Assembly: GCA_024867545.1 (NCBI GenBank) | Contig: JANFNE010000007.1 | Location: forward strand, 1,426,001 to 1,490,000 | Length of the DNA stretch: 64,000 bases | Source of the DNA: Phytopythium helicoides | Lineage: Eukaryota > Oomycota > Peronosporomycetes > Pythiales > Pythiaceae | Direction of reading: 5' to 3' | Shown: positions 7,304-60,656 of the stretch, one piece after another | Layout of the letters: every line of letters starts with the position of its first letter | How positions within the stretch are numbered: the stretch's first letter is position 1 | Program-made: the position numbers and the translations under genes | The notes under the pieces: model-generated | The model's input: only the letters and a program-made list of their open reading frames with translations | Told to the model about the DNA's origin: nothing | Databases searched by the model: none

Positions 7304-7319
7304 TTTCATTTTCCAATTT
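7304..7319 (+). promoter_or_regulatory. Oomycete Inr/FPR-like core promoter
   Basis: The sequence TTTCATTTTCCAATTT matches the oomycete initiator plus flanking region (about GCTCATTYBNCAWTTT, recalled from published oomycete promoters) at roughly 14 of 16 positions. It lies 12 bases before the ATG of paralogue 6. Confidence 0.65.
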
Positions 7320-7330
7320 GACTCAAAGCC

Positions 7331-12594: not shown

Positions 12595-12610
12595 TCCCAC
12601 TTTGCAATTT
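12595..12610 (+). promoter_or_regulatory. Oomycete Inr/FPR-like core promoter
   Basis: TCCCACTTTGCAATTT fits the GCTCAYTYYNCAATTT pattern seen at other genes of this window and lies 61 bases before the ATG of PPT paralogue 9. Confidence 0.55.
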
Positions 12611-12670
12611 ACCAGCAACCAACAACAACCAACCCCATCTTTACCAGCAACTCCAGCAACAACAACTACG

Positions 12671-20895: not shown

Positions 20896-20939
20896 TGTGG
20901 TTGCTGGTCCGCTGGCTGGTGAGCTGCTTGGGAAGACGG

Positions 20940-20955
20940 AAATTGCAGAGTGAGC
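20940..20955 (-). promoter_or_regulatory. Oomycete Inr-like core promoter of transporter copy A
   Basis: On the minus strand GCTCACTCTGCAATTT fits the oomycete initiator/FPR pattern, 45 bases upstream of the ATG. The mirrored copy has the same motif. Confidence 0.65.
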
Positions 20956-20965
20956 GAGCCTTGGG

Positions 20966-22943: not shown

Positions 22944-22945
22944 TC

Positions 22946-22961
22946 GCTCACTCTGCAATTC
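22946..22961 (+). promoter_or_regulatory. Oomycete Inr-like core promoter of transporter copy B
   Basis: GCTCACTCTGCAATTC, 55 bases before the next element and 70 before the ATG at 23016. It is the same motif as in copy A with a slightly longer leader. Confidence 0.6.
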
Positions 22962-23015
22962 GCCAAGTCCCCCGCACCACAAGCAGCTCGCCAGCCAGCG
23001 GACCAGCTACACACA

Positions 23016-31994: not shown

Positions 31995-34900
31995 TCACTT
32001 TGCACCTACGCTTTGAGTAGAACGATGGCCAGAATGAAGTAATTCCGCAGCGATGGTTGAGTCAACCCCAAGAAATTCGTAGCACTTTCGCTTCCAGTCG
32101 TGGACACTCTTCCCGGTATCTTCATCAATTACAACAAACATCGCTGCCAACAGTTTGTCCAGCCGCCGATGAAGACCATACGCTTCCAGCGACATCTCGG
32201 TGAAGTCTAAGAGCGAGTCTGAATGCGACGATATAGCACTTATTGTCGACTGGACATCAACCATGAGCAGACCGAGACGATTCAACGCATCGGTGTTCCC
32301 ATTTAAGCGCATCTGGATGTCCTCGATTCTGTGAAGTAACAACTCGTGTACTTGGTGGGTGATAGTTAGCGATTTTACATCACTAGCGATGCTTCGTCCA
32401 TTGAAGAGGTGATCCCTCACTGACGTCATCAAAGTCGTTAGATCCGAATGCGTTGAAATGGTTGCCACAGTCGGCTCAGAATGCTGCTTGTTAGGATGCA
32501 TTCTAGCCATCACAGAGAGTTCATCCACAACAGTGCACATTTGGATCCGTTCACTTGGATTGAACTTGCACATCATTTTTACCAGTTCCCACGCAGTATC
32601 AGTGCTTCCAGGCGGACGATCAGGTAGCCGACCTCGTTTCATGAGAAACTTTGCTGTTTCTTTATCACCAACATTTATCCATGGGACGCGTGGTGGTAGG
32701 TCTTCCCGCTCTGCGGGATCAATCTTCACTGATGCCACGACTCGGAGAGCCTCGATAATGCACATTCCAAACGAGAACACGTCCGACTCACTTGAAGGAG
32801 TATCTGTTTTTCCAAACATCAGCTCAGGGGCAAGCCAGTTCCACGCACCAGAGATGTTACCACCCCGCTTACTCCTAGACTTGCCGTCGTCATCTTGGTT
32901 TTCGTCATCAACTGTAGCTGCCAAGCTCAGTCCAAAATCGGTCACCTTCGCCTTCCTGTCACTGCCAACCACTATATTGTTGCACTTTAAGTCACAGTGC
33001 ACGATACCGCGCTCGTGTAGATACAATAGACCAAGAGCAGCTTCATGCAGTTTCTTCCAGATCTCCTCGGGATGTTTCAAAAGGTATTTGTCGAGTGACC
33101 CGTACGATGCGTACTCACACACAAAGAACGGTTGACGACCGACGTGGCAGGCACCAAATAGTCTGACCACGTGTGGGTGACTGAGGTTGAACCATATATT
33201 GACTTCACGTTCAAACATGCTGCGCTCTTCTGCCTGCGAGTTGTTCTGGGAACAATTATGGTAATCGTCGACGTTTGCTGAGGTCGTGGAGGATAATGTT
33301 AGTGTCCAAGTGGAAGATTGATTGGGATTGTCTGATAGCGACGTTTCCAGTCGCTTGACGACCACGTCTGAGTCTAGCCACTTCGCGCAATACACACTAC
33401 CGAATCCACCAGAACCAATCTGCTGTCCACCGTTTTGACTTAGCTCGTACCAAGGAATAAACCACACAGGAAGACTGTTCGTAAACTCGGCATCGGCATC
33501 CAGTCGACTCTTGATCTCATCGTAAGTCTTTTGCATGATATCTCGTTGTTTGACTGTGTATTTTGAACCATACTGGTTGATTTCGGACTGCAGATAGGAC
33601 AAAAACACGGCTCGCTCTTCACTTGTCACCAATTCCTCCAGAATTAACTTTGATTTCGAGACTTCGGAAACGAACAGCTGCGTGTCTGGCTCGAGCGGCT
33701 TTGGAAGATCCCCAACGATTTTGCCTTGTTGTAAACCAAGCTGCCTCTTGAGCTCAGAAATTCTGTGGAGTAGCGTATGCATGCTGTTTCCTATCGCTTT
33801 TGTGGACGACAATTGGAGCACAAGTGCAGCTTGGCTGCCGTTTTGTAAAACCTCTGTCGTACTCTGGAGCAAAGCGCATATTTTATCGATCAAATGTATC
33901 GGCTGAGGTGACTGTTTGACGAAGTCGTAAATGACTTGTAGATCATCGAAAACATGCCGGTAGTCATACAAACTGCTTTCCGAGCCGTTTTTGCGTATAT
34001 CTTCAAACTTTAGCCATGCATCTGCCAGCTTCCTGTGATTTTCAACGTCATCACCGACTTGCAATATTGGCTGAGATTGCACGTTCCGGACGTTGTAGTA
34101 ATTGTCTTCTTGTTGAGCACAATGTTCAAATAAATGGACGCAAACAGATGCAGAAGCTCTTTTCGCCGGATCTCGGCAGCAAAGTTGCTTTATAAGTTGC
34201 TCACACTCTTTTGGGACCTTTCCTGGGCGATACCAGCGATCGTTTGATCCTGGTTCCCACACCTTCTTTACCATACGAACATTTTGGTCGGTCCTTTCGC
34301 ACCATGGAATCTTTCTTGTTAGCAACTCCACGATGCATAAGCCTAGCGCGTACACATCAGACGAGCGCGACGGCTTTTCACATATTAGAAGCTCTGGTGC
34401 TTGCCATCGTAGTGACCAAACCAAGCCGCCAGAACTCTCTAGCTCATGACCGTGACTCAATGTTCCACTCATCCCGAAATCCGCAAGCTTCGCTTGTCCG
34501 TCATCTCCCATCAGAATATTGCTCCCTCGCAAATCCCCGTGAATAATACCGCGCTCATGTAGATAGGTTAGACCCAGAGCTGCCTGATGAAGGTATTTCC
34601 ACGGTGTTCGCGTCTCTGGAGAACACGAGTTGAGGTAGTCTATCACGGACCCTTTGCTCGCTAGTTCGCACACAAAGAGGTTGTGACCAACATCGCAAGC
34701 ACCATACAGCTTGATGACATTTGGGTGTCGTAGTTGGTGCCACAACGTCACCTCTTCGTGGAAAGTTGTATTAGCAGCGTCGGGGACAAAAAGTTTCAAT
34801 GCAACATCGGCATCTAACCAAGTGCCAACAAAATCACCCCCCGTAGTACTAGTAACGTGTGCAACGTTGATGTCGAAAGGAGATATGGCTAAGTCTGGTT

Positions 34901-37900
34901 GGCTAGAAGAAATCACGCTAGTTGGGTTTTTGATCGGTGCCGTAGCGGATGCAGACGCGTATCGAGCCAATAGTCGTTGAATATCGTTGTGTCCGTGCTT
35001 TGCTGCAATGTCAGCAGCCTTCAAACCATTTTTCCCAGCCACATTTATATCAGCACCGCGATCGATAAGGTATTTCACCATATCGAAGAGACCACGACGA
35101 GAAGCTATCATCAGCGTTGTCCATCCTTGATTGTTCTCTGCATTCACTTCAGCTTTGTGCTCAATAAGATACTTCACAACTGTTAGATGGCCTCTGTCTG
35201 CAGCTCGCATCAAGGCAGTCCACCCTTCGTTGTCGGAAACATTCACATCAGCATTACTGTCGACGAGGTAGTTCAAAACAGCTATGTGGCCATTTCCCGC
35301 AGCTCGCATCAAGGAAGTCCACCCTTTGCTATCAGTAGCATTCATATCAGCCTTTTTGTTGAGGAGATACCTCACTACCATCAAGTGGTTGCCTTGTGCA
35401 GCCCAATGTGTCGATGTCCATCCGTCTTTGTCGGAGCCGTTCACATCAGCGCCGTGCTCAACAAGACACGCTACAACGTTGAAGTGACCGTACTGAGCCG
35501 CCAACATCAAAGCCGTCCGTCTATTGACGTCTGAAGCGCATACACTTGCGCCGTTGTCAACTAAGTTCTCTACATCGCTTATGCGGCCAATTCTTGCAGC
35601 TCTCATCAAGGCGGTCCGTCCTTCGTTGTCGGCAGCATCCGCATCAGCCCCGCAATCCAATAAAGTCATCAACACGTTCAGTCTGCCATACTCTATGGCG
35701 TTCATCAAAGCCGTTCGCCCGTCTCTGTCGCTAGTATTAACATCGGCACCACAATCAACTAGCCACTTGATAATGTCGGAATGGCCATTTTCGGCAGCTC
35801 GCATCACTGCTGGACGGCCAGCTTTGTCGGTGACATTTATACTCGCCCCAGAATCAGTTAGATATTTCACAATATCTAAGTGACCACCGCTTGAAGCTTG
35901 CATCAAAGCTGTCCGTCCTTCGTTGTCGATAGCGTTTAGATCCGCGCTGCACTCTGCAAGGATTCTCATGACATTTGCATGACCGTTTTCAATCGCCTTC
36001 ATCAATGCTGTTCGTCCCTCCTTGTCAGTAGCATTGACATCAGCATTGCGCTTGACGAGGTAGTTGACGACATCTAACCGATCGTTTCTTGCGGCCAAAG
36101 TCATGGCCGTCCATCCATCGTTGTCGGTTGCATTCACATTTGCGCCTCTGTCGATGAGGCAGTTCATGACGTCAAAATTGCCTTTTTCCGCAGCCGTCAT
36201 CAAAATTGACGTTCCTGTAATATTAGCATCGTTCACATTGGCTCCAAAATCGATAAGGCACTTCACGATATCCAAGTGGTCGTTGTTTGCAGCCCACATC
36301 AGTGGTGTCCACCCAATATTGTTGGAAGCATTTACATTCGCGCCAAAGTCGATGAGGCAACTTACAACCATAAAGTGTCCATTCCTTGCAGCCCACATCA
36401 ACGCTGTCCATCCGTCATTTTCAGCGGCATTGACTTCAGCCCCAAAATCGATAAGGTACTTTACAATATCAAGAAGGCCGTTTTCAGCAACCCAGATCAA
36501 AGTCGTCTTCCCGTTGACATCCGCAGTATTGACGTTGGCCTCACGATCGATGAGGTATCTCATTGTCTCGAAGTGGATGTTTCTTGCAGCCCACATCATG
36601 GCAGTCCAGCCAAAAACGTCGGCAACATCCACATCAGCATTGCAGTCGATAAGATAGCTCACAATCTCGGGATAGTCATTACTTGCTGCCCACATCAACG
36701 CTGTCCACCCATTCTTGTCAACAGCGTTCACATCCACTCCGTAATCGATGAAGTACTCCACGACATCTAAATGTCCGTTTTCAGCAGCCCAGATCAAAAG
36801 CGTCTTCCCGCTATCGTCAACTGTATTCACATCAGCTCCGTGATCGACAAGGTACATGATTACCTCCAAATGGCCCAATGTTGTAGCCCACATTAAAACT
36901 GTCCGATTGTCATTGTCGGCAGCATTCACATCAGCACCTTGTTCAACTAGACACTTAATGGTGTCTATGTTGCCATTGTCCGCAACCCACATCAACGCCG
37001 TGATTCCGCTGTCGTCTGAAGAATTGACATCTGCGCCACATTCGACCAGGAATTTCACCACTCCCAGGTGATCTTCAACAGCAGCTCGCATCAATACGGT
37101 CCATCCGTCGTTGTCGGCAGTTTTTACGTCGGCACCATGGAAGGCAAGATACTTGACAAACTTGATGCGACCATGCTTTGCAATCCACGTCAAAGCAGTC
37201 CAGCCATCACTGTCCGCGGCGTTGACGTCAGCACCGCAATCGACGAGGCACTTGACTGTCTCAAAGTGCTTGTTTAAGGCAGCCTCAAACAAAGCAGACC
37301 GTCCGTAGTCGTTGACAGCATTTATATCTGCACCGCGATCAGCAAGGTACCTCAAAATTTCGGAATGACCGTATCTTGCGGCCCAAATCATAGCGGTCGA
37401 ACCATTATTGTCAGCAGCGTTGAGGTCGGCACCTCGGTTGAAGAGACACTCTACAATATGGAAGTCGCCACCCAAGGCAGCGAAAAGTAATGCGGGCCAT
37501 CCATTTAAGTTGGTGGCATTCACTTCCGCTCCACGCTCGACGACACACTCTAAAACGCCCAAGTGATTATTTGCAGCAGCCCGAATCAAAGCAGTTAATC
37601 CATTGTTGTCGGCCGCATTCACATCAGCGCTCGAGTCGATAAGATACATCACGACGTCTGTGTGGCCAAATGCTGCCGCCCACATCATTGCAGTCCATCC
37701 ATCACAATCGGTGCTGTTGACGGCAGCGCCGCATCGAACTAGATATTCCACCACAGCCAGGTGCCCTTCTCCAGCAGCTCGCATCAACGCAGTCCATCCA
37801 TCGTTGTCGGCTGTATTCACATCGGCTCCTTTGCCCATCAGGTACTTCAGAATGTCGGAGTCGCCAATCTTCGCGGCCCACATCAAAGCAGTCCAGCCTT

Positions 37901-38087
37901 CGGCGTCACCTGCGTTGACATCGGCACCACAATCGACGAGGCGCTTGACGATATCAAAACGACCCTTGCTCGCAGCAACCATGAGTGCCGTCTTCCCGAG
38001 TGGACATCTTGAATCGATATCGTCAAGGAGCCGCACGCTGTCGAAATCTCCTGCAAGAGCTGCGTCAAGCAGGTCCTTGGTCGCCAT
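31995..38087 (-). CDS. Giant ankyrin-repeat protein with two TKL-type kinase domains
   Basis: 2030 residues, no intron evident. Residues 1 to about 1060 hold some 32 ankyrin repeats of 33 residues with the consensus NDGWTALMWAARNGH-VVKYLIDxGADVN. A first kinase-like domain (about 1070-1345) keeps the VALK lysine and LADFG but has no glycine-rich loop and reads HGDLRGSN in place of HRDLKxxN, so it is probably a pseudokinase or weak kinase. A linker follows (about 1346-1545). A second kinase domain (about 1550-1870) has GSGGFGSV, VVVKRL, HCDLKCNN and VTDFG, with cysteine replacing the HRD arginine, common in TKL-like kinases. The C-terminal ~160 residues are unrecognised and probably helical. 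The ATG at 38087 follows an initiator-like motif. Likely a cytoplasmic signalling scaffold kinase. Confidence 0.9.
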   Translation of the reverse strand: MATKDLLDAALAGDFDSVRLLDDIDSRCPLGKTALMVAASKGRFDIVKRLVDCGADVNAGDAEGWTALMWAAKIGDSDILKYLMGKGADVNTADNDGWTALMRAAGEGHLAVVEYLVRCGAAVNSTDCDGWTAMMWAAAFGHTDVVMYLIDSSADVNAADNNGLTALIRAAANNHLGVLECVVERGAEVNATNLNGWPALLFAALGGDFHIVECLFNRGADLNAADNNGSTAMIWAARYGHSEILRYLADRGADINAVNDYGRSALFEAALNKHFETVKCLVDCGADVNAADSDGWTALTWIAKHGRIKFVKYLAFHGADVKTADNDGWTVLMRAAVEDHLGVVKFLVECGADVNSSDDSGITALMWVADNGNIDTIKCLVEQGADVNAADNDNRTVLMWATTLGHLEVIMYLVDHGADVNTVDDSGKTLLIWAAENGHLDVVEYFIDYGVDVNAVDKNGWTALMWAASNDYPEIVSYLIDCNADVDVADVFGWTAMMWAARNIHFETMRYLIDREANVNTADVNGKTTLIWVAENGLLDIVKYLIDFGAEVNAAENDGWTALMWAARNGHFMVVSCLIDFGANVNASNNIGWTPLMWAANNDHLDIVKCLIDFGANVNDANITGTSILMTAAEKGNFDVMNCLIDRGANVNATDNDGWTAMTLAARNDRLDVVNYLVKRNADVNATDKEGRTALMKAIENGHANVMRILAECSADLNAIDNEGRTALMQASSGGHLDIVKYLTDSGASINVTDKAGRPAVMRAAENGHSDIIKWLVDCGADVNTSDRDGRTALMNAIEYGRLNVLMTLLDCGADADAADNEGRTALMRAARIGRISDVENLVDNGASVCASDVNRRTALMLAAQYGHFNVVACLVEHGADVNGSDKDGWTSTHWAAQGNHLMVVRYLLNKKADMNATDSKGWTSLMRAAGNGHIAVLNYLVDSNADVNVSDNEGWTALMRAADRGHLTVVKYLIEHKAEVNAENNQGWTTLMIASRRGLFDMVKYLIDRGADINVAGKNGLKAADIAAKHGHNDIQRLLARYASASATAPIKNPTSVISSSQPDLAISPFDINVAHVTSTTGGDFVGTWLDADVALKLFVPDAANTTFHEEVTLWHQLRHPNVIKLYGACDVGHNLFVCELASKGSVIDYLNSCSPETRTPWKYLHQAALGLTYLHERGIIHGDLRGSNILMGDDGQAKLADFGMSGTLSHGHELESSGGLVWSLRWQAPELLICEKPSRSSDVYALGLCIVELLTRKIPWCERTDQNVRMVKKVWEPGSNDRWYRPGKVPKECEQLIKQLCCRDPAKRASASVCVHLFEHCAQQEDNYYNVRNVQSQPILQVGDDVENHRKLADAWLKFEDIRKNGSESSLYDYRHVFDDLQVIYDFVKQSPQPIHLIDKICALLQSTTEVLQNGSQAALVLQLSSTKAIGNSMHTLLHRISELKRQLGLQQGKIVGDLPKPLEPDTQLFVSEVSKSKLILEELVTSEERAVFLSYLQSEINQYGSKYTVKQRDIMQKTYDEIKSRLDADAEFTNSLPVWFIPWYELSQNGGQQIGSGGFGSVYCAKWLDSDVVVKRLETSLSDNPNQSSTWTLTLSSTTSANVDDYHNCSQNNSQAEERSMFEREVNIWFNLSHPHVVRLFGACHVGRQPFFVCEYASYGSLDKYLLKHPEEIWKKLHEAALGLLYLHERGIVHCDLKCNNIVVGSDRKAKVTDFGLSLAATVDDENQDDDGKSRSKRGGNISGAWNWLAPELMFGKTDTPSSESDVFSFGMCIIEALRVVASVKIDPAEREDLPPRVPWINVGDKETAKFLMKRGRLPDRPPGSTDTAWELVKMMCKFNPSERIQMCTVVDELSVMARMHPNKQHSEPTVATISTHSDLTTLMTSVRDHLFNGRSIASDVKSLTITHQVHELLLHRIEDIQMRLNGNTDALNRLGLLMVDVQSTISAISSHSDSLLDFTEMSLEAYGLHRRLDKLLAAMFVVIDEDTGKSVHDWKRKCYEFLGVDSTIAAELLHSGHRSTQSVGAK
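34970..38005 (-). repeat. Array of 99-bp coding repeats (ankyrin)
   Basis: About 31 direct repeats of 99 bases encode the ankyrin units. Several (for example those reading NDGWTALM and NEGRTALM) are similar enough at DNA level to suggest expansion by unequal exchange. Confidence 0.8.
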
Positions 38088-46266: not shown

Positions 46267-46836
46267 ATGAAGTTCGCCGCTGCCCTCCTCGCCTCGACCG
46301 CCGCCGTCGCCTCAGCCGCCACGTGCGACGTCTCGATCCTCTCGGGCCTCGTCGCCACGACTGAGTTCACGGGCTGCCAGGACGACTCGGGCTACACGAT
46401 CACGTCGCTGGTCGTCCCGACGGACGCCGAGGTCGCCAAGATCTGCACGAGCTCGTCGTGCAAGAAGCTGCTCGACGACCTGAACGGCCTCGTCACGGTT
46501 GACTGCTCCATCGGCTCGCTCAACATCCTGTCGGACCTCGTGGACCCCATTGTCTCCACCTGCGGCTGGGGCTCGAGCTCGGGCTCGGCCGACTCGGCCA
46601 CGGTCGGCTCGACCTCGTCGGGCTCGACGGACGCCACGGTGACCACGGCCCCTGTGACCGCGTCGTCGTCGTCGTCGTCGTCGTCGGCTGCCGCCCCCAC
46701 GGCCACGACGGCTGCGCCGAGCTCCTCGTCGGGCAGCTCCACGGGCTCGGCCAGCACTGGCTCGAGCTCGGCCTCGTCGATCGCCACGGGCGTTGCCGCC
46801 ACGGCCTTCGCTGTCGCCGCCGCCGCCATGCTGTAA
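46267..46836 (+). CDS. Elicitin-like protein with Ser/Thr-rich GPI-type tail (1)
   Basis: 189 residues. A signal peptide (MKFAAALLASTAAVASA) is followed by an elicitin domain at about 19-100 with the six conserved cysteines. Then comes a Ser/Thr/Ala-rich stalk with a serine run encoded by TCG repeats, and a hydrophobic C-terminus (ATGVAATAFAVAAAAML), as expected for a GPI-anchored cell-surface protein. Classical elicitins bind sterols and other lipids in a helical pocket and trigger defence responses in some plants; elicitin-like proteins with long tails are mostly surface proteins of less clear role. It sits at the start of the elicitin/receptor-kinase cluster. Confidence 0.9.
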   Translation: MKFAAALLASTAAVASAATCDVSILSGLVATTEFTGCQDDSGYTITSLVVPTDAEVAKICTSSSCKKLLDDLNGLVTVDCSIGSLNILSDLVDPIVSTCGWGSSSGSADSATVGSTSSGSTDATVTTAPVTASSSSSSSSAAAPTATTAAPSSSSGSSTGSASTGSSSASSIATGVAATAFAVAAAAML

Positions 46837-47567: not shown

Positions 47568-49322
47568 ATGAGGCGGCCGTGGCGACTTGCGGCGCTGCTG
47601 GCGCTGCTGGCAGTGGCCCATGCGGAGCTGCCGAGCGCCGGAGTCGACGACCGGTTCCTCCAGACCACAGGCAGCGCGTCCTCCGACGGAGGGTCCACCG
47701 GTGGGACGACCACGCCGACGCCAACGCCGACGCCAACGCCGACGCCAACGCCAACGCCAACGCCGACGTCGACGACGAAAACGCCCACGACGACGGCTCC
47801 TCCTACGACGACAGAGCCAGCGACGACCACGGCGACGCCCACGACGACGACCGAGACGCCCACGACGACGACAGAGACGCCGACAGAGACCCCGGAGGCG
47901 ACGACCGTGCAGCCCAAGGTGGAGCGGTACAACTCGACCACGCTGCCTCCTAGCATCTCGGAGAGCGAGCTGGACGGCGCCACGCTGCTGTATGTCGAGG
48001 TCACCAAGACCACGCACTCGGATGGCAGCATCACCTACAGCTACGTGGTCGTGTCCAAGACGGGCGACACGATCACCAGAGTCGAGGAGAGCGGCGCGTC
48101 GTCGGGCGACGGGTCAGGCAGCAGCAGCAGCAGCCAGGGCCAAGGTGCCACCGACGGCAGCTCTGGGTCCTCGAGCTCTGGATTCGGCTCAGCAGGGTTG
48201 ATCGGCGTCATCGCCGGAGGTCTCGTGCTCATGGCCATCGTCATCGGGTTCTTCCTCTACCGCCGCAGACAGATCCGTCGCCAGGAAGAGGCTGAAGCAG
48301 ACTACCACGACACGATCGATTCGCCGATCCCTCGCGGTCAGTCACACAACTACACCGACAAGTCGTGGAGTGGAGATTACTACCGAGATGGCACCGGAGC
48401 CACGGGCACCTTGTCGTCTGGAAATGGAACGCAGATCTCAAGAGCGAGTCTCTGGGATGACCCGGACCTCATCGCCGCTCGGATTCCGTTCGATCGCGTC
48501 CAGGTTGGCGAGCTGCTCGGCAAAGGAGCGTACGGCGAGGTGTACCGCGGCGAGTACCGCAACCAGGAGGTGGCCATTAAGCGGCTGCTGCCTGAGACGA
48601 GGAAGAACATGAAGCACATTGAAGGCTTCCTCGCTGAGATCCGGCTCATGTCCACCATGGAGCACCCGCACATCGTGCAGTTTGTCGGTGTCGCGTGGGA
48701 TTCTCTCTCGGACCTCATGTGCCTCACCGAGTACATGGCAGGTGGTGACCTCCGCACAATGCTTGTGAGCTACCATGAGAGTGGACATCCAGTAGGATAC
48801 GACCCCACCAAGGCCAACATCGCGCTTCACATCGCCCACGGACTCACGTACTTGCACTCGCTGAGCCCTGTGGTGCTCCATCGCGACCTCAAGTCTCGCA
48901 ATATTTTGCTCACCGACTCGCTCGTGGCCAAGCTGACCGACTTTGGCGTCTCCCGTGAGCGATCGGACCGCACGATGACTGCAGGAGTGGGCTCCAGTCT
49001 CTGGATGGCACCCGAAATTATGATGGGGACCCGGTACGACGAGAAGGCTGACGTGTTCTCGCTCGGAGTGGTTATGTCGGAGCTCGACACGCACGAGCTG
49101 CCATACACACATGCCAAGGAGTCTGAGACCGGGCACTCGCTGCCGGACATGGTCGTGCTCCAGATGGTGACTGCCGGCCGGCTCCGAGTCCAGCTTTCGG
49201 ACCGTCTGCAGCCGTCGCTGCGCCATTTGATTACCGAGTGTGTGAGTCTGGATCCGCGAGACCGTCCGACCGCCGCTCAGGCGCTCTACGAGCTGCAAAT
49301 GATCTCCAAGGCGATGCACTGA
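47568..49322 (+). CDS. Receptor-like TKL protein kinase 1
   Basis: 584 residues, a single-pass receptor kinase. It has a signal peptide (MRRPWRLAALLALLAVAHA), then a Thr/Pro-rich stalk with tandem TPTP and TTTxTPTT repeats (about 45-118). A conserved ~48-residue extracellular module follows (YNSTTLPPSI...VEVTKTTHSDGSITYSYVVV, about 120-170), then a Ser/Gly linker and one transmembrane helix (about 207-231) ended by RRRR-type basics. The kinase domain (about 305-580) has GKGAYGEV, VAIKRLL, HRDLKSRN, DFG and APE all intact. It is first of four kinases in the same orientation. Ligand unknown; the O-glycosylation-prone stalk suggests a wall-facing sensor. Confidence 0.92.
   Translation: MRRPWRLAALLALLAVAHAELPSAGVDDRFLQTTGSASSDGGSTGGTTTPTPTPTPTPTPTPTPTPTSTTKTPTTTAPPTTTEPATTTATPTTTTETPTTTTETPTETPEATTVQPKVERYNSTTLPPSISESELDGATLLYVEVTKTTHSDGSITYSYVVVSKTGDTITRVEESGASSGDGSGSSSSSQGQGATDGSSGSSSSGFGSAGLIGVIAGGLVLMAIVIGFFLYRRRQIRRQEEAEADYHDTIDSPIPRGQSHNYTDKSWSGDYYRDGTGATGTLSSGNGTQISRASLWDDPDLIAARIPFDRVQVGELLGKGAYGEVYRGEYRNQEVAIKRLLPETRKNMKHIEGFLAEIRLMSTMEHPHIVQFVGVAWDSLSDLMCLTEYMAGGDLRTMLVSYHESGHPVGYDPTKANIALHIAHGLTYLHSLSPVVLHRDLKSRNILLTDSLVAKLTDFGVSRERSDRTMTAGVGSSLWMAPEIMMGTRYDEKADVFSLGVVMSELDTHELPYTHAKESETGHSLPDMVVLQMVTAGRLRVQLSDRLQPSLRHLITECVSLDPRDRPTAAQALYELQMISKAMH
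47705..47775 (+). repeat. Coding simple repeat for the Thr-Pro stalk
   Basis: About ten copies of the six-base unit ACGCC(G/A) encode alternating Thr-Pro in the stalk of kinase 1. Such a tract can change length by slippage. Confidence 0.7.
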
Positions 49323-49833: not shown

Positions 49834-51993
49834 ATGGCTCCATCGAGACGCTCGTTACTGGTGCTGCTGGTGCTGCTAGTGGCGCTGGGCTCATGGACGC
49901 ACGTCACGAATGCAGATGCCGTGCGACGCCTTGAAGCAGACGCATCAGGTGAGTTTCAAGCTCTCTTCCCCCTTCTGACAGGCCGTCCTGCTCAGCGCAA
50001 ACTCCTTCTTCTTGATATCGTTGTAGGCGTCGCTGACGATTCTATTGTCGGGTCATCTGCCTCCGGTGATTCATCGGGCACTGGAGCAGGCACAGGAAGC
50101 GCGGGGACCACTCCAAGTACCAGCTCGCCGTCGTCGAACGGCAACAGCGGGTCGACTAGCAACCCATCGACATCGGGATCATCTGGAAGCACGGCCTCGA
50201 CGACTTCGCCACCCCCGACGACGACAACGCCCACCACTACGACCAAGACGCCGACCACAACTACCGCGACGCCTACAACAACCACCGCGACGCCTACAAC
50301 AACCACCGCGACGCCTACGACTACCACCACGACGCCGACCACAACTACGAAGACTCCAACGACGACGACTACTGCTCCACCTACGACCACATCGCCTCCA
50401 ACTACCACGGCACCTCCAACGACGTCGTCAGCACCTGTGGTTACGACTCGAGCACCAACAACGACAACAGAAGCGCCGGCAACAACAACATCAACTCCCA
50501 CGTCGACAACGACGCAGCCCAGTGTCGTAACCTACAACTCGTCCACGCTTCCACCGGATATTAATGATAGCAACTTGAACGGATCAACCGTCTTGTGGGT
50601 TGAAGTCACCAAGACCACCAATGCTGACGGCACAGTCACCTACAGCTACGTTGTCGTGACGAAGGTCGGCGACACGATCCAAAGAGTCAACGAAACTGCT
50701 CTTACATCAACTTCTGCTCCCACCGCCACTTTGACAAGTCTCCCTGGCAGCTCAAGTGGCAGCACTAGCACCAGCAGCACTAGTGATCAAGCGAAGGGAG
50801 CCCAGGCAAGCGATGGAACAACTGCAGCGTCGAAAACGTCTGGGTTCCCTTCAGGCGCACTGGTTGGTGTCGTGGTTGGTGGACTGGTACTTACAGCGCT
50901 GCTCATCGGCTTCTTCGTACTTCGCCGGCGCCAAATTCTGCGCGATCGGGATTCAATTGCTGACGACGACATCATTGAATCTCCTGTTCGACATGATCAA
51001 GCTCGACCCTACAAGAGTCCATCGACTTGGGGGATCAACTATCAAGAAGTGACTTCCCAGACAGCCACGACGATGTCATCACAAGGAACTGGACCAAATC
51101 GTACACGTTCGTCCGGAAGTCTTTGGGAAGATGCTGTCATTGTGGCAGCTCGAGTTCCATTCGACCGAGTCACAATTGGCGAACTGCTTGGAAAAGGTGC
51201 TTATGGCGAAGTCTACCGTGGAGAGTTTCGTGACCAAAAGGTTGCTGTCAAGCGTCTTCTTCCAGAGACTAGGAAGAACATGGTGCATATTGAAGGATTC
51301 TTGTCAGAAATCCGTCTACTGGCTGTGATGGAGCATCCTCACATTGTGCAATTTGTGGGTGTTGCGTGGGACTCGCTTTCGGACCTCATGTGCCTCACGG
51401 AGTTCATGGGCGGCGGTGACCTTCGATCACTTTTGATTGAGTATCAGGAGATTGGACATCCAGTCGGCTATGATCTCAAGAAAACCAACATCGCGCTTCA
51501 TGTCACTCATGGTCTCACGTATCTGCACTCACTGAGTCCAATCGTGCTGCATCGAGACCTCAAGTCTCGCAACATTCTCCTCACGAACTCTCTCCAAGCC
51601 AAATTGACAGACTTTGGCGTATCTCGCGAGCGGTCTGATCGTACAATGACTGCTGGCGTTGGCTCGAGTCTATGGATGGCGCCTGAAGTCATGATGGGTA
51701 TGCGTTACGACGAGAAGGCAGATATTTTCTCGCTTGGTGTTGTCATGTCGGAGCTGGACACGCATCAGCTTCCGTACTCGCACGCCAAGGAGAGCCAGAC
51801 GGGAGCTCCGATGCCAGATATGGCCGTGTTGCAGCTCGTGACTGCTGGGCGTCTTCGAGTTCAACTGTCCGAGCGGTTGTTGCCTTCGCTGCGGCACTTA
51901 ATCACGGAATGTGTGAATCTTGATCCTCGTCAGCGTCCGACTGCCGCGCAGGCTTTATATGAGCTGCAGATGATGGCGAGATCGCTGCAGTAA
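49834..51993 (+). CDS. Receptor-like TKL protein kinase 2
   Basis: 719 residues if unspliced, 693 if the in-frame intron 49949-50026 is removed. It has a signal peptide (APSRRSLLVLLVLLVALGS), a long stalk of TTTxTPTT repeats, and the same extracellular module as kinase 1 (YNSSTLPPDI, then VEVTKTTNADGTVTYSYVV). A Ser/Thr linker, one transmembrane helix (about 340-364 unspliced) and a complete kinase domain follow, with GKGAYGEV, VAVKRLL, HRDLKSRN, DFG and APE. The start is the first ATG. It is close to kinases 1 and 4 through the module, transmembrane and kinase parts, while stalk length varies greatly. Confidence 0.9.
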   Translation: MAPSRRSLLVLLVLLVALGSWTHVTNADAVRRLEADASGEFQALFPLLTGRPAQRKLLLLDIVVGVADDSIVGSSASGDSSGTGAGTGSAGTTPSTSSPSSNGNSGSTSNPSTSGSSGSTASTTSPPPTTTTPTTTTKTPTTTTATPTTTTATPTTTTATPTTTTTTPTTTTKTPTTTTTAPPTTTSPPTTTAPPTTSSAPVVTTRAPTTTTEAPATTTSTPTSTTTQPSVVTYNSSTLPPDINDSNLNGSTVLWVEVTKTTNADGTVTYSYVVVTKVGDTIQRVNETALTSTSAPTATLTSLPGSSSGSTSTSSTSDQAKGAQASDGTTAASKTSGFPSGALVGVVVGGLVLTALLIGFFVLRRRQILRDRDSIADDDIIESPVRHDQARPYKSPSTWGINYQEVTSQTATTMSSQGTGPNRTRSSGSLWEDAVIVAARVPFDRVTIGELLGKGAYGEVYRGEFRDQKVAVKRLLPETRKNMVHIEGFLSEIRLLAVMEHPHIVQFVGVAWDSLSDLMCLTEFMGGGDLRSLLIEYQEIGHPVGYDLKKTNIALHVTHGLTYLHSLSPIVLHRDLKSRNILLTNSLQAKLTDFGVSRERSDRTMTAGVGSSLWMAPEVMMGMRYDEKADIFSLGVVMSELDTHQLPYSHAKESQTGAPMPDMAVLQLVTAGRLRVQLSERLLPSLRHLITECVNLDPRQRPTAAQALYELQMMARSLQ
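49949..50026 (+). other. Candidate in-frame intron of kinase 2
   Basis: Begins with a strong donor (GTGAGT) and ends ATCGTTGTAG, 78 bases, a multiple of three with no stop, so the frame is open either way. Spliced, the signal peptide region joins directly to the Ser/Gly stalk (ADASGVADDS). Unspliced, an out-of-character LLLLDIVV segment interrupts the stalk, which favours splicing. Confidence 0.55.
50215..50520 (+). repeat. Thr-rich stalk repeat of kinase 2, with three 21-bp units
   Basis: ACN/CCN-rich microsatellite-like sequence encoding TTTxTPTT units. Within it, 50266-50328 holds three consecutive 21-base copies, the first two identical. Confidence 0.75.
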
Positions 51994-52235: not shown

Positions 52236-53939
52236 ATGATGTACCTCGCCGCTTTAGCCGCCGTCGCCATCGGTATTGCATCTGTGAAAGCTGCCACGTG
52301 CAACACAACCATCATCGCCTCATTCCTGACCAGCGAAGTTGTCACTACGTGCTCATCGAACGCTGGTTACGACTTCACGTCGCTGACCGCCCCCACGGGT
52401 GCCGAGGTCGCTGCCATGTGTGGTGACTCTGACTGTCTTGCTGCTTTGTCTGCCCTCGAGACCTCGGGCATTGGCGATTGCACGGTCGGCACGTTCTCGA
52501 TCATGACGGAGCTCGTCAATCCCGTCATGTCGACCTGTTATGGCACTATCACCACTACTTCGTCGGACAACAGCGATACGGCCAGCTCAACCACAGGATC
52601 TGGACTAAATTCGGCGATCACCGACTCTAGCTCTGGTTCATCGCTACATTCGACGTCCGCATCAGCTTCCTCGATTGAAGAATCGCTTGCGCCGACGCCA
52701 GTACCTCTGAACACTCCAAGTTCAGCAAGTGCTGGAAATGATGAAGCAAGTACATCTCAAGAAGATGGATCAGCGTTCGAAACTTCGTTGAACTTGCCTG
52801 GGGCTATAGCTGGTATAGTTTTTGGCTGTCTCGCGGCAACTGTTCTTGTTACCGCTCTCTACTTGTGCCGTCAACGCAGTCAGAACAAGAGTTTACTGGC
52901 AAACAGAGGCTCCGCGATGGAGACTAACGAAGATGAACCTCAGTATCAACGTGACTTAACATTTCGATTATCAAGAACTAAATATCAAGAGACAGCAACC
53001 ACGAAGTCAACCGCTGCTTTGTCTTCTCATGGGAAAGATCTTAAACATTGTACACCGTCTGCTGGAACGTGGGACGACTCTGTGATTGTTGCTGCTCGAG
53101 TTCCCTTTGATCGAATCAAGGTTGGCAACATGCTAGGAAAAGGCTCCTATGGCGAGGTGTATCGTGGAAGGTTTCGCAATCAACAAGTTGCCATCAAGCG
53201 TCTTTTGCCAGAGACAAGAAAGAACATGGTGCATATTGAAGTCTTTTTGAAGGAAATCCGGCTGCTGGCTTCTCTGGATCATCCTAATATCGTGCAGTTT
53301 GTTGGTGTTGCTTGGGATTCGCTTTCTGACCTCATGTGCTTGGCAGAGTTCACGGATGGAGGTGATCTTCGATCGCTGCTATTGCATTATGACGCAACGC
53401 GACACACAGAGGGCTTTGACTCCGAGAAAACTACTATTGCACTCGAGGTGGCTCATGCTCTCACATATTTGCATTCGCTTAAACCGATGGTGCTGCATAG
53501 AGACCTCAAGTCACGTAACATCATGCTCACAACTTCATTGCAAGCAAAGCTAACTGACTTTGGAATATCTCGCGCGTGGACGGATCGCACCATGACTGCT
53601 GGCGTCGGATCGATGCTATGGATGGCGCCTGAAGTGATGACAGGGACGCATTATGACGAAAAGGCTGATGTGTTTTCACTTGGTGTGGTGATGTCGGAGC
53701 TTGACACCCACCAGTTGCCATATTCGAACACCAGGGACGCTCAGAACGGCACTCTACTACCAGGAATGGCGGTGTTGCAGTTGGTAGCCGCTGGTCGTCT
53801 TCAAGTCAAGCTATCAGACAAGCTGACAGATTCTATTCACTCCTTGATCGAGCAATGCGTGAGCGTAAAACCCGAAGATCGTCCGACAGCTGCTCAGGTA
53901 TTGTATGAGCTTCAATTGAGCGCGAGGTCGACGAAGTGA
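52236..53939 (+). CDS. Elicitin-domain receptor-like TKL kinase (fusion)
   Basis: 567 residues in one uninterrupted frame. Order: signal peptide (about 1-19, MMYLAALAAVAIGIASVKA); elicitin domain (about 20-102) with six cysteines in the CNTT, CSSN, CGDS, CLAA, CTVG, CYGT contexts; Ser/Thr-rich stalk (about 103-185); one transmembrane helix (about 187-210, GAIAGIVFGCLAATVLVTALYL). The TKL kinase (about 290-565) has GKGSYGEV, VAIKRLL, HRDLKSRN, LTDFG and APE intact. It lies between kinases 2 and 4 in the same orientation and replaces their shared ectodomain module with the elicitin. The elicitin part is about 62/82 identical, counted by eye, to the gene at 60087. Predicted as a surface receptor; since elicitins bind sterols, a lipid or sterol ligand is a reasonable but untested inference. 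An assembly chimera is unlikely because the junction is a normal stalk and both halves diverge from their relatives. Confidence 0.93.
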   Translation: MMYLAALAAVAIGIASVKAATCNTTIIASFLTSEVVTTCSSNAGYDFTSLTAPTGAEVAAMCGDSDCLAALSALETSGIGDCTVGTFSIMTELVNPVMSTCYGTITTTSSDNSDTASSTTGSGLNSAITDSSSGSSLHSTSASASSIEESLAPTPVPLNTPSSASAGNDEASTSQEDGSAFETSLNLPGAIAGIVFGCLAATVLVTALYLCRQRSQNKSLLANRGSAMETNEDEPQYQRDLTFRLSRTKYQETATTKSTAALSSHGKDLKHCTPSAGTWDDSVIVAARVPFDRIKVGNMLGKGSYGEVYRGRFRNQQVAIKRLLPETRKNMVHIEVFLKEIRLLASLDHPNIVQFVGVAWDSLSDLMCLAEFTDGGDLRSLLLHYDATRHTEGFDSEKTTIALEVAHALTYLHSLKPMVLHRDLKSRNIMLTTSLQAKLTDFGISRAWTDRTMTAGVGSMLWMAPEVMTGTHYDEKADVFSLGVVMSELDTHQLPYSNTRDAQNGTLLPGMAVLQLVAAGRLQVKLSDKLTDSIHSLIEQCVSVKPEDRPTAAQVLYELQLSARSTK

Positions 53940-54320: not shown

Positions 54321-55928
54321 ATGGCGAGCAACAACGGATCGGACGACATCGAATTCCCCGCCGATAATCCCGTTGTCCCGACACCAGAACCAAACGTGGA
54401 TACGTCGACGACAACAACGACTACACCTTCAACAGCAACAAACTCGCCTGGCGAGACTACCACTGCACCAGATACAACTGCCGCAGCATCAACTGATTCA
54501 ACTGAAGTCAGCGTCGTGCACTACAATTCTTCGACATTGCCACCAAGCATTGACGAGAGCGATCTCAATGGAGCTACGCTGCTGTGGGTCGAGGTCACCA
54601 AGACCACGAATGCAGACGGAACTGTTACCTACAGCTATGTGGTTGTCACCAAGACAGGCGATGTGATTCAGACGTTCAACGAAACTGATAAAGCAGTGGC
54701 CGAATCGGGATCTGGCTCAACTTCATTGATCGCGGATGGATCGAGTTCGCCATCTGGGCTGTCGTCGAGTGCGCTCATTGCAATTATTGCTAGCGTACTC
54801 GTTGTGCTAATTCTTCTCATCGGGGGTTTTATACTTCGACGGCGTCGTCGGCCTCAAGACTCCCATTTGACTGGATATGTTGGTCTCCAGACTCCTTCGT
54901 CAGAGCAGCAATACCCCATTCGAAACAGCAAGAGCAACTCTTTGGGACAAATCTTGAGTCAGGACATGACGAAGTCGTCAAAGACTACCACAGGACACTC
55001 TTCTCATCGCTCCGACTCGGAGCGCTCTCGACCACGTCGATCTGGTAGTCTCTGGGAAGATGAAGCGATTATAGCTGCTCGTATACCTTTTGATCGCGTC
55101 CACATTGGAGATCTACTTGGCCAAGGAGCGTTTGGCGAAGTGTATCGCGGAGAGTTCCGTGAGCAAGATGTTGCCATCAAGCGCCTACTGCCGCAAACAC
55201 GAAAAAATATGACCCAAATCGAAGCCTTCCTTGCCGAGATCAAGCTTCTGGCCTCCATGGAGCACCCAAGCATTGTTCAGTTTGTTGGTGTGGCGTGGGA
55301 TTCGCTTAGCGACCTTATGTGCTTGACAGAGTTCATGTCTGGCGGCGACCTTCGCACCCTGCTTATTGAATACCAAGAGGCCGAATACCCAACTGGGTTT
55401 GATGAGTCGAAGGTGCATATTGCTCTCCAAGTGACACACGGACTCACATACCTCCACTCGCTCAGTCCAATTGTGCTTCATCGAGATCTGAAGTCAAGAA
55501 ATATATTGTTGAGCGACACGCTGCAAGCCAAGCTAACCGACTTTGGTGTCAGTCGCGAAAGCTCAGACCGCACGATGACTGCAGGAGTAGGATCCATCTT
55601 GTGGATGGCCCCAGAAGTCATGATGGGCATGCGATACGACGAAAAAGCCGACGTATTCTCGTTGGGAGTTGTCATGTCGGAGCTTGACACGCACCAACTG
55701 CCGTACGCGCACGCAAGAGACAGCCAGACTGGAGCGCCATTGGGAGATATGGCGCTGCTGCAGCTTGTGTCGACTTGCAGATTGACTATTCAGCTTTCCG
55801 ACAGGATTCAACCGCGCCTGCGGCACTTGATCACTGCCTGTGTAAGTCCTGATCCTCGCCAGCGTCCAACTGCTGCACAAGCACTGCATGAGCTACAGTT
55901 AGCACAACAATCGATGCGAAGGCATTGA
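54321..55928 (+). CDS. Receptor-like TKL protein kinase 4, lacking a visible signal peptide
   Basis: 535 residues. A short Thr-rich stalk leads to the family's extracellular module (YNSSTLPPSI, then VEVTKTTNADGTVTYSYVVV, about 66-116). A transmembrane helix (about 149-172, ending RRRRR) and a full kinase domain follow, with GQGAFGEV, VAIKRLL, HRDLKSRN, DFG and APE. The N-terminus (MASNNGSDDIEFPADNP) is hydrophilic and has no signal peptide, unlike its relatives. Either the transmembrane helix acts as a signal anchor, an upstream exon is missing, or the 5' end was lost in duplication. The catalytic part looks functional. Confidence 0.88.
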   Translation: MASNNGSDDIEFPADNPVVPTPEPNVDTSTTTTTTPSTATNSPGETTTAPDTTAAASTDSTEVSVVHYNSSTLPPSIDESDLNGATLLWVEVTKTTNADGTVTYSYVVVTKTGDVIQTFNETDKAVAESGSGSTSLIADGSSSPSGLSSSALIAIIASVLVVLILLIGGFILRRRRRPQDSHLTGYVGLQTPSSEQQYPIRNSKSNSLGQILSQDMTKSSKTTTGHSSHRSDSERSRPRRSGSLWEDEAIIAARIPFDRVHIGDLLGQGAFGEVYRGEFREQDVAIKRLLPQTRKNMTQIEAFLAEIKLLASMEHPSIVQFVGVAWDSLSDLMCLTEFMSGGDLRTLLIEYQEAEYPTGFDESKVHIALQVTHGLTYLHSLSPIVLHRDLKSRNILLSDTLQAKLTDFGVSRESSDRTMTAGVGSILWMAPEVMMGMRYDEKADVFSLGVVMSELDTHQLPYAHARDSQTGAPLGDMALLQLVSTCRLTIQLSDRIQPRLRHLITACVSPDPRQRPTAAQALHELQLAQQSMRRH

Positions 55929-56061: not shown

Positions 56062-56922
56062 TTAGTGGAGAACAGCCATAATTGTGGCTACAGCAGCAGA
56101 GCCGATGAGAGCAGTTGTGGTGGAGAGGCTGGACGCAGCGCTACTTCCCGAAGCCGAGGCCGACTTGGATGCCGACGCTGAGCTTGACGAAGTGGTGGAT
56201 CCCGACGATGACGCATCACGGGAAACCGTCTCAATCGCATCGGATGAGTCGCTGGCGCTGTCCGAGTCACCAACGCTCACATCCGAGCCGCTGCTGCCCG
56301 ACGAGGACGACGCACTGAAGGAGAAAAATGCTTCGTCTCCAATCGAGGCATCGCTGTCAAGGCTTCCCGAAGAGAAGCTATCGAAGTCAAAGTCCTCGTC
56401 AGCGTCCCCATCAGATCCGTCAGATCCGGTCGCAGAGGATCCAGTCGCGGAAGAACCGGTTGCAGAGGAACCGGCAGACGAGTACGCGGTTGCCGACGAG
56501 TCAGCACCAATATCGGATGCGTCCGTGTCAAACGAGTCATCAACATCCGTTGAATCGTCGTTGAACGTGTCATCAGTGCTGCTGCCGCTCGCCTGGGTCG
56601 AGGCTGATCCCGCGCAGTAAGCGACCACGGGGTTGACCAGGGCCGACTGGAGCGAGACGGAGCCGGTCGTGCAGTCACCAAGTTCGTTGAGCGCCTCGAG
56701 GACCGACTGGCATGCCGTGCTCGAGCACATGGCAGCAATTTCGTCGCTCGAGGGAGCAACAAGCGAAGAGAACGAGTAGCCCGAGTCAGATGAGCACTGC
56801 GATGCGTCACTCGACGTGACGGCAATCGACAGCGAGCTGGTATCACAAACATCGGCGCGAGCCAAGTCGGCAAAGGCGAGAGCAGCCGTAGCAGCAAAAC
56901 CCGTCAAGAGCTGGAGCTTCAT
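56062..56922 (-). CDS. Elicitin-like protein with long Ser/Asp-rich tail (2)
   Basis: 286 residues from the first ATG at 56922 (signal peptide MKLQLLTGFAATAALAFADLARA). The elicitin domain, about 24-105, has six cysteines. The tail is an unusually long Ser/Asp/Thr-rich region with SSATG tandem units and acidic DSDASD stretches, ending in a hydrophobic segment (TTALIGSAAVATIMAVLH) typical of GPI attachment. Closest in the window to the elicitin at 58200-58901 (shared CSSDSGYSFSSL and CQSxLEA blocks). Likely wall- or membrane-anchored. Confidence 0.9.
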   Translation of the reverse strand: MKLQLLTGFAATAALAFADLARADVCDTSSLSIAVTSSDASQCSSDSGYSFSSLVAPSSDEIAAMCSSTACQSVLEALNELGDCTTGSVSLQSALVNPVVAYCAGSASTQASGSSTDDTFNDDSTDVDDSFDTDASDIGADSSATAYSSAGSSATGSSATGSSATGSDGSDGDADEDFDFDSFSSGSLDSDASIGDEAFFSFSASSSSGSSGSDVSVGDSDSASDSSDAIETVSRDASSSGSTTSSSSASASKSASASGSSAASSLSTTTALIGSAAVATIMAVLH

Positions 56923-58199: not shown

Positions 58200-58901
58200 T
58201 TACACGAAGAGCGCGAGCACCGTGGCGGCGACAGCCGACCCGAGCACCGCCGAGGTCGACGAGAGCGTGATGGCGGCACTGCTGCCCGACGCAGCTGCGG
58301 TGTCCGATCCCGCGGACGAGGCCGACTCCTCAGTGTCCTCCGAAGCCGACGAGCCGGCGCTGGTAGGCTCCGGCGTCTCGACCGTGAAGTCGCTGCCCGA
58401 GTCCGAGTCACCGACGTCGACGTCCGTGTCCTCGCTCGCAGACGACGTCGTGTTGGTCACGGGCTCAACGATCTCGTCGTCAGCGCTGGCGCTGTCGTCA
58501 ACAGGAGCAACGGTGCCCGCTTCATCGTCGTCGATGGAGGCCGAGCTGTTCTCAGACTCGGAGCCGCTGGAGCTGCTGAGCGAGGCACAGTAGGAGACGA
58601 CGGTGTCGATGAGGTCCGTCTGGATCGAGAAGGTGCCGACCGTGCAATTGCCCAGATCAAGCGCCTCCGCGGCCTCGAGCGCCGACTGGCACGCCGTGCT
58701 CGTGCACATGAGGTCCATCTCGGCAGTGGTGGGCGACGTGAGCGACGAGAACGAGTAGCCCGAGTCGGACGCGCACTGGGTCACGTCACTGTCGGCTACG
58801 AGCGTCGCGAGCGTGGCGGTGTCGCACGCAGCGGCGTGCACCGAGGAGGAGAAGGCGAGGACGGCAGCAGCCGCGAACGCAGTGGTGGCGAAGAAGTTCA
58901 T
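58200..58901 (-). CDS. Elicitin-like protein with acidic Ser-rich tail (3)
   Basis: 233 residues from the ATG at 58901 (signal peptide MNFFATTAFAAAAVLAFSSS). The frame is open upstream, but the only ATG followed by a signal peptide is this one. The elicitin domain spans about 24-108 with six cysteines, followed by a Ser/Asp/Glu/Thr-rich stalk and a hydrophobic C-terminus (LGSAVAATVLALFV), suggesting GPI anchoring. Similar to the gene at 56062-56922 and probably a local duplicate. An initiator-like string (gcatttcggaatcc on the minus strand) lies near 58966-58979. Confidence 0.88.
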   Translation of the reverse strand: MNFFATTAFAAAAVLAFSSSVHAAACDTATLATLVADSDVTQCASDSGYSFSSLTSPTTAEMDLMCTSTACQSALEAAEALDLGNCTVGTFSIQTDLIDTVVSYCASLSSSSGSESENSSASIDDDEAGTVAPVDDSASADDEIVEPVTNTTSSASEDTDVDVGDSDSGSDFTVETPEPTSAGSSASEDTEESASSAGSDTAAASGSSAAITLSSTSAVLGSAVAATVLALFV

Positions 58902-60086: not shown

Positions 60087-60656
60087 TTAAGCGTTGATGG
60101 CGGCAACGAGGAGCACCGAGCCGACAAGGGCCGAGGCGACCGTGATGGCGGCACCGCTGCTCGAGGCAGAAGCAGAGACCGAGCCGCTGGCCGAGGCCGA
60201 AGCCGAAGCAGCCGACGGGGCGGCAGCGCTGCCCGACGAGGAAGCAGCCGGGGCCTGGGTCTCGACGGTGTTGTCCGAGCCCGAGGCCGACGAGGTGCCG
60301 ACGGTCGTGGTCGTGGCGCTGCTGCCCGAGCCAGTCGCGGAAGTGTCGTTGCAGGACGACACGATGGGGTCAACGAGGTCCGTCATGATCGAGAACGAGC
60401 CGACCGTGCAGTCGCCAAGGCCCGAGGCCTCAAGGGCCGAGAGGGCAGCAAGGCAGGACGCGTCACCGCACATGGCCGTAACCTCAGCGGCAGTGGGGGC
60501 GGTCAGCGACGTGAAGTCGTAGCCCGAGTCCGTCGAGCACGCGGTGACGTCGTCGCTGGTCAGGAGCGAGGCGATGATGGTCGTGTTGCACGTGGTCTGG
60601 GCGTTGACCGTGGCGACGGCGGCGGCGGCGAGGGTGGCGATGGCGGCGAACTGCAT
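60087..60656 (-). CDS. Elicitin-like protein with Ser/Ala-rich GPI-type tail (4)
   Basis: 189 residues. Signal peptide MQFAAIATLAAAAVATVNA, an elicitin domain at about 20-104 with six cysteines (CNTT, CSTD, CGDA, CLAA, CTVG, CNDT), an Ala/Ser-rich stalk, and a hydrophobic end (ITVASALVGSVLLVAAINA) consistent with GPI attachment. Its elicitin domain is much closer to that of the receptor kinase at 52236 than to the other three elicitins here, marking it as the likely sister or donor sequence. A near-perfect initiator lies at 60698-60713. Confidence 0.92.
   Translation of the reverse strand: MQFAAIATLAAAAVATVNAQTTCNTTIIASLLTSDDVTACSTDSGYDFTSLTAPTAAEVTAMCGDASCLAALSALEASGLGDCTVGSFSIMTDLVDPIVSSCNDTSATGSGSSATTTTVGTSSASGSDNTVETQAPAASSSGSAAAPSAASASASASGSVSASASSSGAAITVASALVGSVLLVAAINA

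Follow-up and report, generated by a model that had tools for sequence, protein, structure and literature searches.

This locus raises the question of whether an elicitin-like domain and a receptor kinase are carried on a single polypeptide in Phytopythium helicoides and, if so, what such a protein could sense and how it arose. In the window, as we call the whole stretch of 64,000 nucleotides analysed here, a frame of 567 codons without a stop was found on the forward strand (52236-53939; ORF and Pfam), encoding in order a leader, an elicitin-like domain, a stalk, a membrane segment and a TKL kinase. The hydrophobic, signal-peptide-like leader (aa 1-19, 52236-52292) was identified by hydropathy and is followed by the elicitin-like domain with its six Cys (aa 20-101, 52293-52538; Pfam PF00964, Cys spacing and model), which scored 50.7 bits in the Pfam scan against a curated cut-off of 25. 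The Ser/Thr-rich stalk (aa 102-187, 52539-52796) was delimited by composition and pLDDT, with 45% Ser/Thr across 85 residues and pLDDT values below 50 over most of its length in the predicted structure. The transmembrane helix (aa 188-212, 52797-52871; hydropathy and model) reaches a hydropathy of 2.37 at residues 190-208, and the predicted structure has a helix at 188-222. A juxtamembrane segment (aa 213-284, 52872-53087), defined by alignment with the public protein P0009, leads into the kinase domain (aa 285-567 plus stop, 53088-53939; Pfam and motifs), where the catalytic motifs GxGxxG, VAIK, HRDLKSRN, DFG and APE are intact. No LRR was detected in the protein by the Pfam scan. The initial annotation had claimed one frame with a leader, a six-Cys domain, a Ser/Thr stalk, a transmembrane helix and an intact TKL kinase, and each of these elements was confirmed by ORF, Pfam, hydropathy or motif analysis. 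Of the features by which oomycete TKL receptor-like kinases are recognised, the leader and transmembrane helix were found by hydropathy and in the model and the kinase by Pfam, and from its sequence the fusion appears to be a single-pass receptor kinase of predicted topology with an active-looking TKL kinase.

The type of the elicitin-like domain was analysed from its Cys pattern and its predicted fold. The six conserved Cys and the modelled fold place it in the elicitin family, but the spacing (16-22-4-14-18, the six Cys spanning 80 residues) is not the canonical one and the domain is not the 98-residue domain of canonical elicitins. By these sequence features it is an elicitin-like (ELL-type) domain and not a canonical elicitin, so that the full elicitin domain described earlier holds as regards PF00964, the six Cys and the predicted elicitin fold, but not as regards the canonical type. 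In Foldseek, the domain model resembled only solved elicitins, among them cryptogein bound to cholesterol and to ergosterol; five elicitin rows had a probability of 1.00 and the remaining rows 0.05 or less, with no match reaching E 0.001 (best E-value 1.3e-3). Cryptogein was compared through a PDB profile search with the elicitin domain alone, a wider alignment having drawn mostly kinases. Tyr33 is conserved in the fusion domain, whereas the position of Tyr47, which we take to be a sterol contact in cryptogein, is occupied by Val, and in the other four ELLs of the window it is Val, Met or Ile. The ELL type and the Val at this position count against sterol as the ligand of the fusion. Whether ELLs bind sterols is described as unsettled in an excerpt of PMC8211186. 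A homologue search with the ectodomain only (residues 1-110; 1748 candidates) gave no match at E 1e-3; a full-length search of the same database did return oomycete proteins, so oomycetes are represented in it. A tblastn search of phage sequences hit 44 records, each below 60% identity, and the five listed align to the kinase part only and were regarded as irrelevant.

The gene content of the genome is as expected for a sterol auxotroph, since the oxidosqualene-cyclase family PF13243 had no match in the genome (the same search was positive in two of 14 control genomes, those of Bacillus subtilis and Methanosarcina acetivorans), whereas three ERG4/ERG24-family matches were found, all on C20. 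The latter agree with the retention of DHCR7 in Phytophthora and Pythium (excerpt of PMC8211186). A single weak and partial squalene epoxidase match (32.6 bits, cut-off 20.1) was set aside as a related monooxygenase, given that Escherichia coli and Caulobacter match too. In Phytophthora sojae, the receptor kinase SSRK1 is reported to sense sterol by coupling with elicitins (Pei et al., 2024, as cited in excerpts of PMC12662980 and PMC12223298), the elicitins and SSRK1 reportedly form higher-order complexes, and sterol is reported to trigger calcium influx and MAPK phosphorylation (excerpt of PMC12662980). The claim that the fusion senses sterols or lipids outside the cell fits this work on SSRK1 plus elicitins (same excerpts), but sits less well with the Val at the Tyr47 position; lipid or sterol sensing is a plausible role for a protein of this sequence.

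The two systems would be alike in that an oomycete receptor kinase works with an elicitin-type partner at the cell surface of sterol auxotrophs. They differ in that the elicitins of the SSRK1 system are separate proteins, whereas in the fusion the elicitin-like domain lies within the kinase chain. An LRR ectodomain can be expected for the SSRK1 type, judging from PPTG_09207, a putative P. parasitica homologue listed among LRR receptor kinases in an excerpt of PMC12223298, in contrast to the LRR-free fusion. The ELL proteins (PF00964) share with the fusion the six-Cys domain, the elicitin fold, a Ser/Thr-rich tail and the leader, the closest being the ELL at 60087-60656; however, ELLs are hypothesised to be GPI-anchored (excerpt of PMC8231210), while in the fusion a transmembrane segment and a kinase replace the GPI end. 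Similarly, the oomycete-specific TKL receptor-like kinases (Judelson and Ah-Fong, 2010; excerpt of PMC3019232) have the leader, transmembrane helix and cytoplasmic TKL kinase, but the transmembrane kinases of that excerpt include ones with extracellular LRR and intracellular DEP domains, whereas the ectodomain of the fusion is elicitin-like.

The gene lies third in a tandem array of four receptor kinases (47568, 49834, 52236 and 54321, all on the forward strand), with ELL genes on both flanks. The sister kinases, identified by BLAST, Pfam and motif, are located at 47568-49322 (kinase 69% identical to that of the fusion), at 49834-51993 (73%, the nearest paralogue in the array) and at 54321-55928 (67%), and no Elicitin match was detected in any of the three by the Pfam scan. 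They share an outer VTKTT...YSYVVV motif with the public proteins P0016, P0018, P0020 and P0022, which was present in none of the 207 other public rows; their outer parts, as read from the translations, are likewise Thr/Ser-rich. The ELL genes, recognised by Pfam, are at 46267-46836 on the forward strand and, on the reverse strand, at 56062-56922, 58200-58901 and 60087-60656. For 58200-58901 the match was obtained on a 404-aa frame, open up to 59414, and an internal Met ahead of the leader is taken as the probable start from the C23 copy. The ELL at 60087-60656 has a hydrophobic C-terminal end (hydropathy) and is the closest elicitin to the fusion domain, at 75% amino acid identity (BLAST).

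A second copy of this region is present on C23. The block, an alternative haplotype or homeologue, is largely colinear, with 92.8-95.1% identity in pieces over window positions 41145-61827 and 90% at 14394-17495, and the dS between the two blocks is 0.07-0.18 (three gene pairs). On C23 the kinases and ELLs to either side keep open frames, but the fusion copy lacks about 63 bases of the elicitin part, a stretch of about 1.1 kb reaching from the elicitin end to past mid-kinase, and one further single base. Judging from this remnant, the fusion probably predates the divergence of the two blocks. It also suggests that the fusion may be dispensable, as one block can apparently manage without it, although an assembly error could also lie behind the broken copy.

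The same join was found in another assembly, in the Logan contig protein P0009. Its kinase is identical to that of the window gene at 237 of 283 positions (84%), and the reading frame is unbroken between the middle of the elicitin and the kinase terminus, membrane segment included, with 33 of 72 aligned residues identical in the juxtamembrane segment. The elicitin fragment is much more diverged: only 14 of 44-45 residues are identical to the window domain, although all four of its Cys are conserved, and its identity to the ELL at 56062 (18 of 43) is slightly above that to the fusion. By comparison, P0022 and the kinase at 54321, a pair of similar kinase divergence (243/283), are identical at 135 of 187 positions in the region ahead of the kinase; P0016 matches the kinase at 49834 at 277 of 283. 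P0016 and P0022 look like orthologues of these two flanking kinases. P0009, P0016 and P0022 are each on a contig with a stated length of 11090, and this common figure together with the matches to the flanking kinases suggests that they lie on one contig carrying the same genes. P0009 is therefore the apparent orthologue of the window fusion, on the evidence of these alignments, and with an elicitin part so diverged the ligand may differ even among orthologues.

To place the architecture among public proteins, two full-length searches were run, in which 7986 and 7989 candidates were scored and the top 120 out of 4829 matches in one and out of 706 in the other gave 211 distinct proteins (P0002-P0212). 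Among these listed homologues, at least 14 carry an elicitin above the Pfam cut-off N-terminal to the kinase, a count that does not measure the true frequency; they come from Pythium insidiosum (seven), P. oligandrum (two), Phytophthora lilii (one), JGI metagenomes (three) and the Logan contig. The initial annotation had proposed a search for elicitin plus kinase architectures, and its outcome is thus these 14 public cases and the three more loci of this genome described below. All the other cases bear oomycete names or are unnamed metagenome or Logan sequences, in line with the earlier claim of an oomycete-specific receptor architecture. Precomputed labels for Elicitin plus kinase stand on 15 listed proteins, 14 of which our own Pfam scan upheld; in the fifteenth, P0094, the elicitin match (24.7 bits) is C-terminal to the kinase. 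Two cases were barely above the cut-off (P0009, a fragment, at 25.5 bits, and P0209 at 25.8 bits), P0071 lacks a membrane segment in the stretch that links its elicitin to its kinase, and the sole membrane segment of P0184 is C-terminal to the kinase. The six-Cys pattern without Pfam support was found in ten of the 211 rows, which were kept apart; of the five scanned (P0070, P0093, P0105, P0118 and P0201), four had Elicitin matches below the cut-off (19.6-20.7 bits) and one had none. The pattern missed three Pfam-supported rows (P0009, P0048 and P0209). The source names of the public cases are generic (hypothetical, unnamed or protein kinase domain-containing), one tRNA-modification protein, or none. 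Our literature searches found no description of an elicitin-kinase fusion, and earlier notice may exist in subscription papers and supplements, which lay outside their scope; excerpts of PMC3681718, PMC6502433, PMC3019232, PMC5795050 and PMC2926784 hold no mention of one, and the word "elicitin" is absent from the text of PMC3019232 by word count. As far as could be searched, the architecture is recurrent and, within the searches made, undescribed.

Three further frames with both domains were found in the same genome: L034:1797-3524 and L034:4900-6651, both on C1, and L035:3678-5396 on C17. Their Elicitin scores (33.3, 43.4 and 35.1 bits, respectively) are all above the cut-off. In the kinase they share only 40-42% identity with the window gene, and they occupy a separate part of the TKL tree. 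The genome survey behind this result comprised 64 Elicitin matches (65 of 65 candidates scored) against at least 146 kinase matches (133 of 709 candidates scored), positions being compared by eye; frames of the window and of stretches L031-L045 were compared by BLAST with both parts of P0001, those of L036-L038 being viewed in part. Both L034 frames are open, and the membrane/juxtamembrane stretch of L034:1797-3524, on the reverse strand, is very unlike that of its close paralogue L034:4900-6651.

The origin of the elicitin module was analysed by comparison with its nearest neighbours. The DNA identity between the fusion and the ELL at 60087 is 70-90% from +41 to about +275, with edge windows at 60-62%, and falls to a background of 33-45% upstream and in the stalk, in such a way that the similarity spans approximately from the ATG to codon 110. 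The dS between the domain and this ELL is 0.49, compared to 1.22 between the kinase and its nearest sister; the elicitin module thus seems to have split from the ELL later than the kinase did from its sisters. The corresponding dN/dS values are 0.28 and 0.16, the former pointing to constraint on the elicitin domain of the fusion. This order of dS values and the low elicitin identity of P0009, compared to the outer parts of P0022 and 54321, suggest a late joining of the neighbouring ELL 60087 module, or an overwriting of the outer part by it, although fast evolution of the ectodomain would equally lower the identity to P0009. A similar mosaic was detected in the C1 pair (dS of 0.87 for the elicitin vs. 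0.34 for the kinase, and the identity profile) but was absent from the C17/C1b pair (1.02 vs. 0.96).

The number of gains was addressed with a quick tree, without bootstrap, of 61 kinase domains hand-picked from 217 (18 with Pfam elicitin, 10 six-Cys-only and 33 others). In it, P0009 pairs with the window gene (SH-aLRT 100) within a clade of nine rows (99), the other seven of which lack the elicitin and bear the VTKTT...YSYVVV-type outer motif. A second pair is formed by the P. lilii protein and a metagenome protein, and a third group unites two metagenome proteins and the genes on C1 and C17, the P. insidiosum and P. oligandrum rows lying elsewhere. The elicitin label changes at least 10 times on this tree and 11 times on a 217-row FastTree (218 rows less P0036, which was too short); well-supported branches taken alone force no more than 2 changes for the 61 rows and 4 for the 217 rows in a comparison of the two labelled groups. 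AU tests rejected monophyly of the 18 elicitin rows (p 3.4e-76), monophyly of 28 rows including the six-Cys-only ones (p 7.7e-37) and a clade of FUS_C68, P0009, P0021 and P0071 (p 7.9e-8), the last of these three sets having been picked after viewing a tree. One ancestral fusion inherited by all is thus rejected on this tree and more than one origin of the architecture is probable, and while the counts of changes do not separate gain from loss, the different outer motif common to the sisters favours a gain for the window gene.

The reading that we prefer, with a probability of roughly one half, is that the fusion is a lipid- or sterol-sensing receptor in one chain, a counterpart of SSRK1 plus elicitin, locally assembled from a flanking ELL module and an array kinase. 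If elicitins and receptor kinases act together, as with SSRK1, their fusion is an expected outcome. In such a receptor the elicitin-like domain, of the lipid-carrier type and set on a flexible stalk, would bind a sterol or some other hydrophobic molecule from the cell's surroundings, loading would alter the pairing of the receptor with itself or with soluble elicitins, and the kinases, whose motifs are intact, would then phosphorylate one another and downstream targets. As to its origin, an ELL module of the flanking cluster would have been joined to the outer part of one kinase of the tandem array, or later written over it. A broader version, in which oomycete TKL receptor kinases have repeatedly captured ELL domains and refresh them from adjacent ELL genes, with a family of single-chain receptors for lipids (possibly sterols) as the result, is put forward only tentatively, at odds short of even. 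The domain may, on the other hand, bind no lipid itself and dock soluble or GPI-anchored elicitins, the fusion then serving an SSRK1-like complex as co-receptor or decoy. We regard this as unlikely, though it would accord with the reported higher-order complexes of P. sojae (excerpt of PMC12662980), with the adjacent ELL with a hydrophobic C-terminal end as closest relative and with the missing Tyr47 equivalent; nothing in the sequence tells docking from ligand binding.

A sensor of the cell wall or surface, in which a glycosylated stalk would be fixed to the wall, the elicitin-like domain would serve for adhesion or as a spacer and the kinase would report wall stress, is rather unlikely: that one lipid-carrier fold became attached to distinct TKL clades exceeds what a spacer requires, even if the Ser/Thr content of the stalk, the Thr/Ser-rich outer parts of the three elicitin-lacking sisters and the hypothesised location of ELI-2 to ELI-4 and ELLs on wall or membrane (excerpt of PMC8231210) are in its favour. 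The deletion in the C23 copy and the strong divergence of the elicitin part between apparent orthologues would be expected of a chance chimera in a fast-turning cluster, heading for loss and with no conserved role, but the frame, the four readable Cys and the kinase are conserved in P0009, the dN/dS values are low in both parts (0.28 and 0.16) and the architecture recurs across several genera, making such a chimera improbable. Finally, two genes could have been read as one through an error of assembly or gene boundary, as may have happened in the public model P0094 with its weak elicitin match behind the kinase. The 567 codons without a stop speak against this, and the frame kept in P0009 from mid-elicitin through stalk and membrane segment to the kinase argues against two separate genes; with the same join in that assembly and at three other loci of this genome, a merger was rejected and an artefact of any kind is very improbable.

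The one-chain lipid receptor would bear on how sterol-auxotrophic oomycetes, which scavenge sterols, sense them, a question to which SSRK1 and elicitins acting in trans are a recent partial answer. A covalent elicitin-like domain on a receptor makes the SSRK1-type idea directly testable on one ectodomain. Repeated fusion in different kinase clades would be independent evolutionary evidence of the "Rosetta stone" kind for a shared pathway of TKL receptor kinases and elicitin-type proteins, and if so, the large and functionally obscure ELL family would gain a role in signalling.

Other elicitor and elicitin arrangements were detected in the course of the analysis. Six P. insidiosum kinases (P0169, P0173, P0179, P0182, P0184 and P0194) have a listed domain of a further surface elicitor, the transglutaminase elicitor (PF16683). 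Of these, P0184 alone was scanned, and it combines transglutaminase, elicitin and kinase in a single chain. L039:3709-5427 (forward strand, C83) encodes 572 aa with four consecutive elicitin domains spaced by Thr-Pro repeats. L033:4057-5442 (reverse strand, C23; 461 aa) fuses an elicitin (43 bits) to a palmitoyl-protein thioesterase/lipase (Palm_thioest, 143 bits), and its relative in the window, at 25238-26317, has thioesterase/lipase matches only. The latter belongs to a large array of similar palmitoyl-thioesterase/lipase-like genes at 147-13693 and 25238-30341 (Pfam on 2868-4001 and 25238-26317 only). The window also contains near-identical inverted transporter genes at 19318-21000 (reverse) and 22869-24593 (forward; Pfam on the first only), a protein of 2030 aa at 31995-38087 (reverse) that has two kinase domains and numerous ankyrin repeats, and at 14394-17495 (reverse) a 1033-aa protein with a weak match (34.5 bits) to Spore_III_AA, a bacterial sporulation ATPase family.
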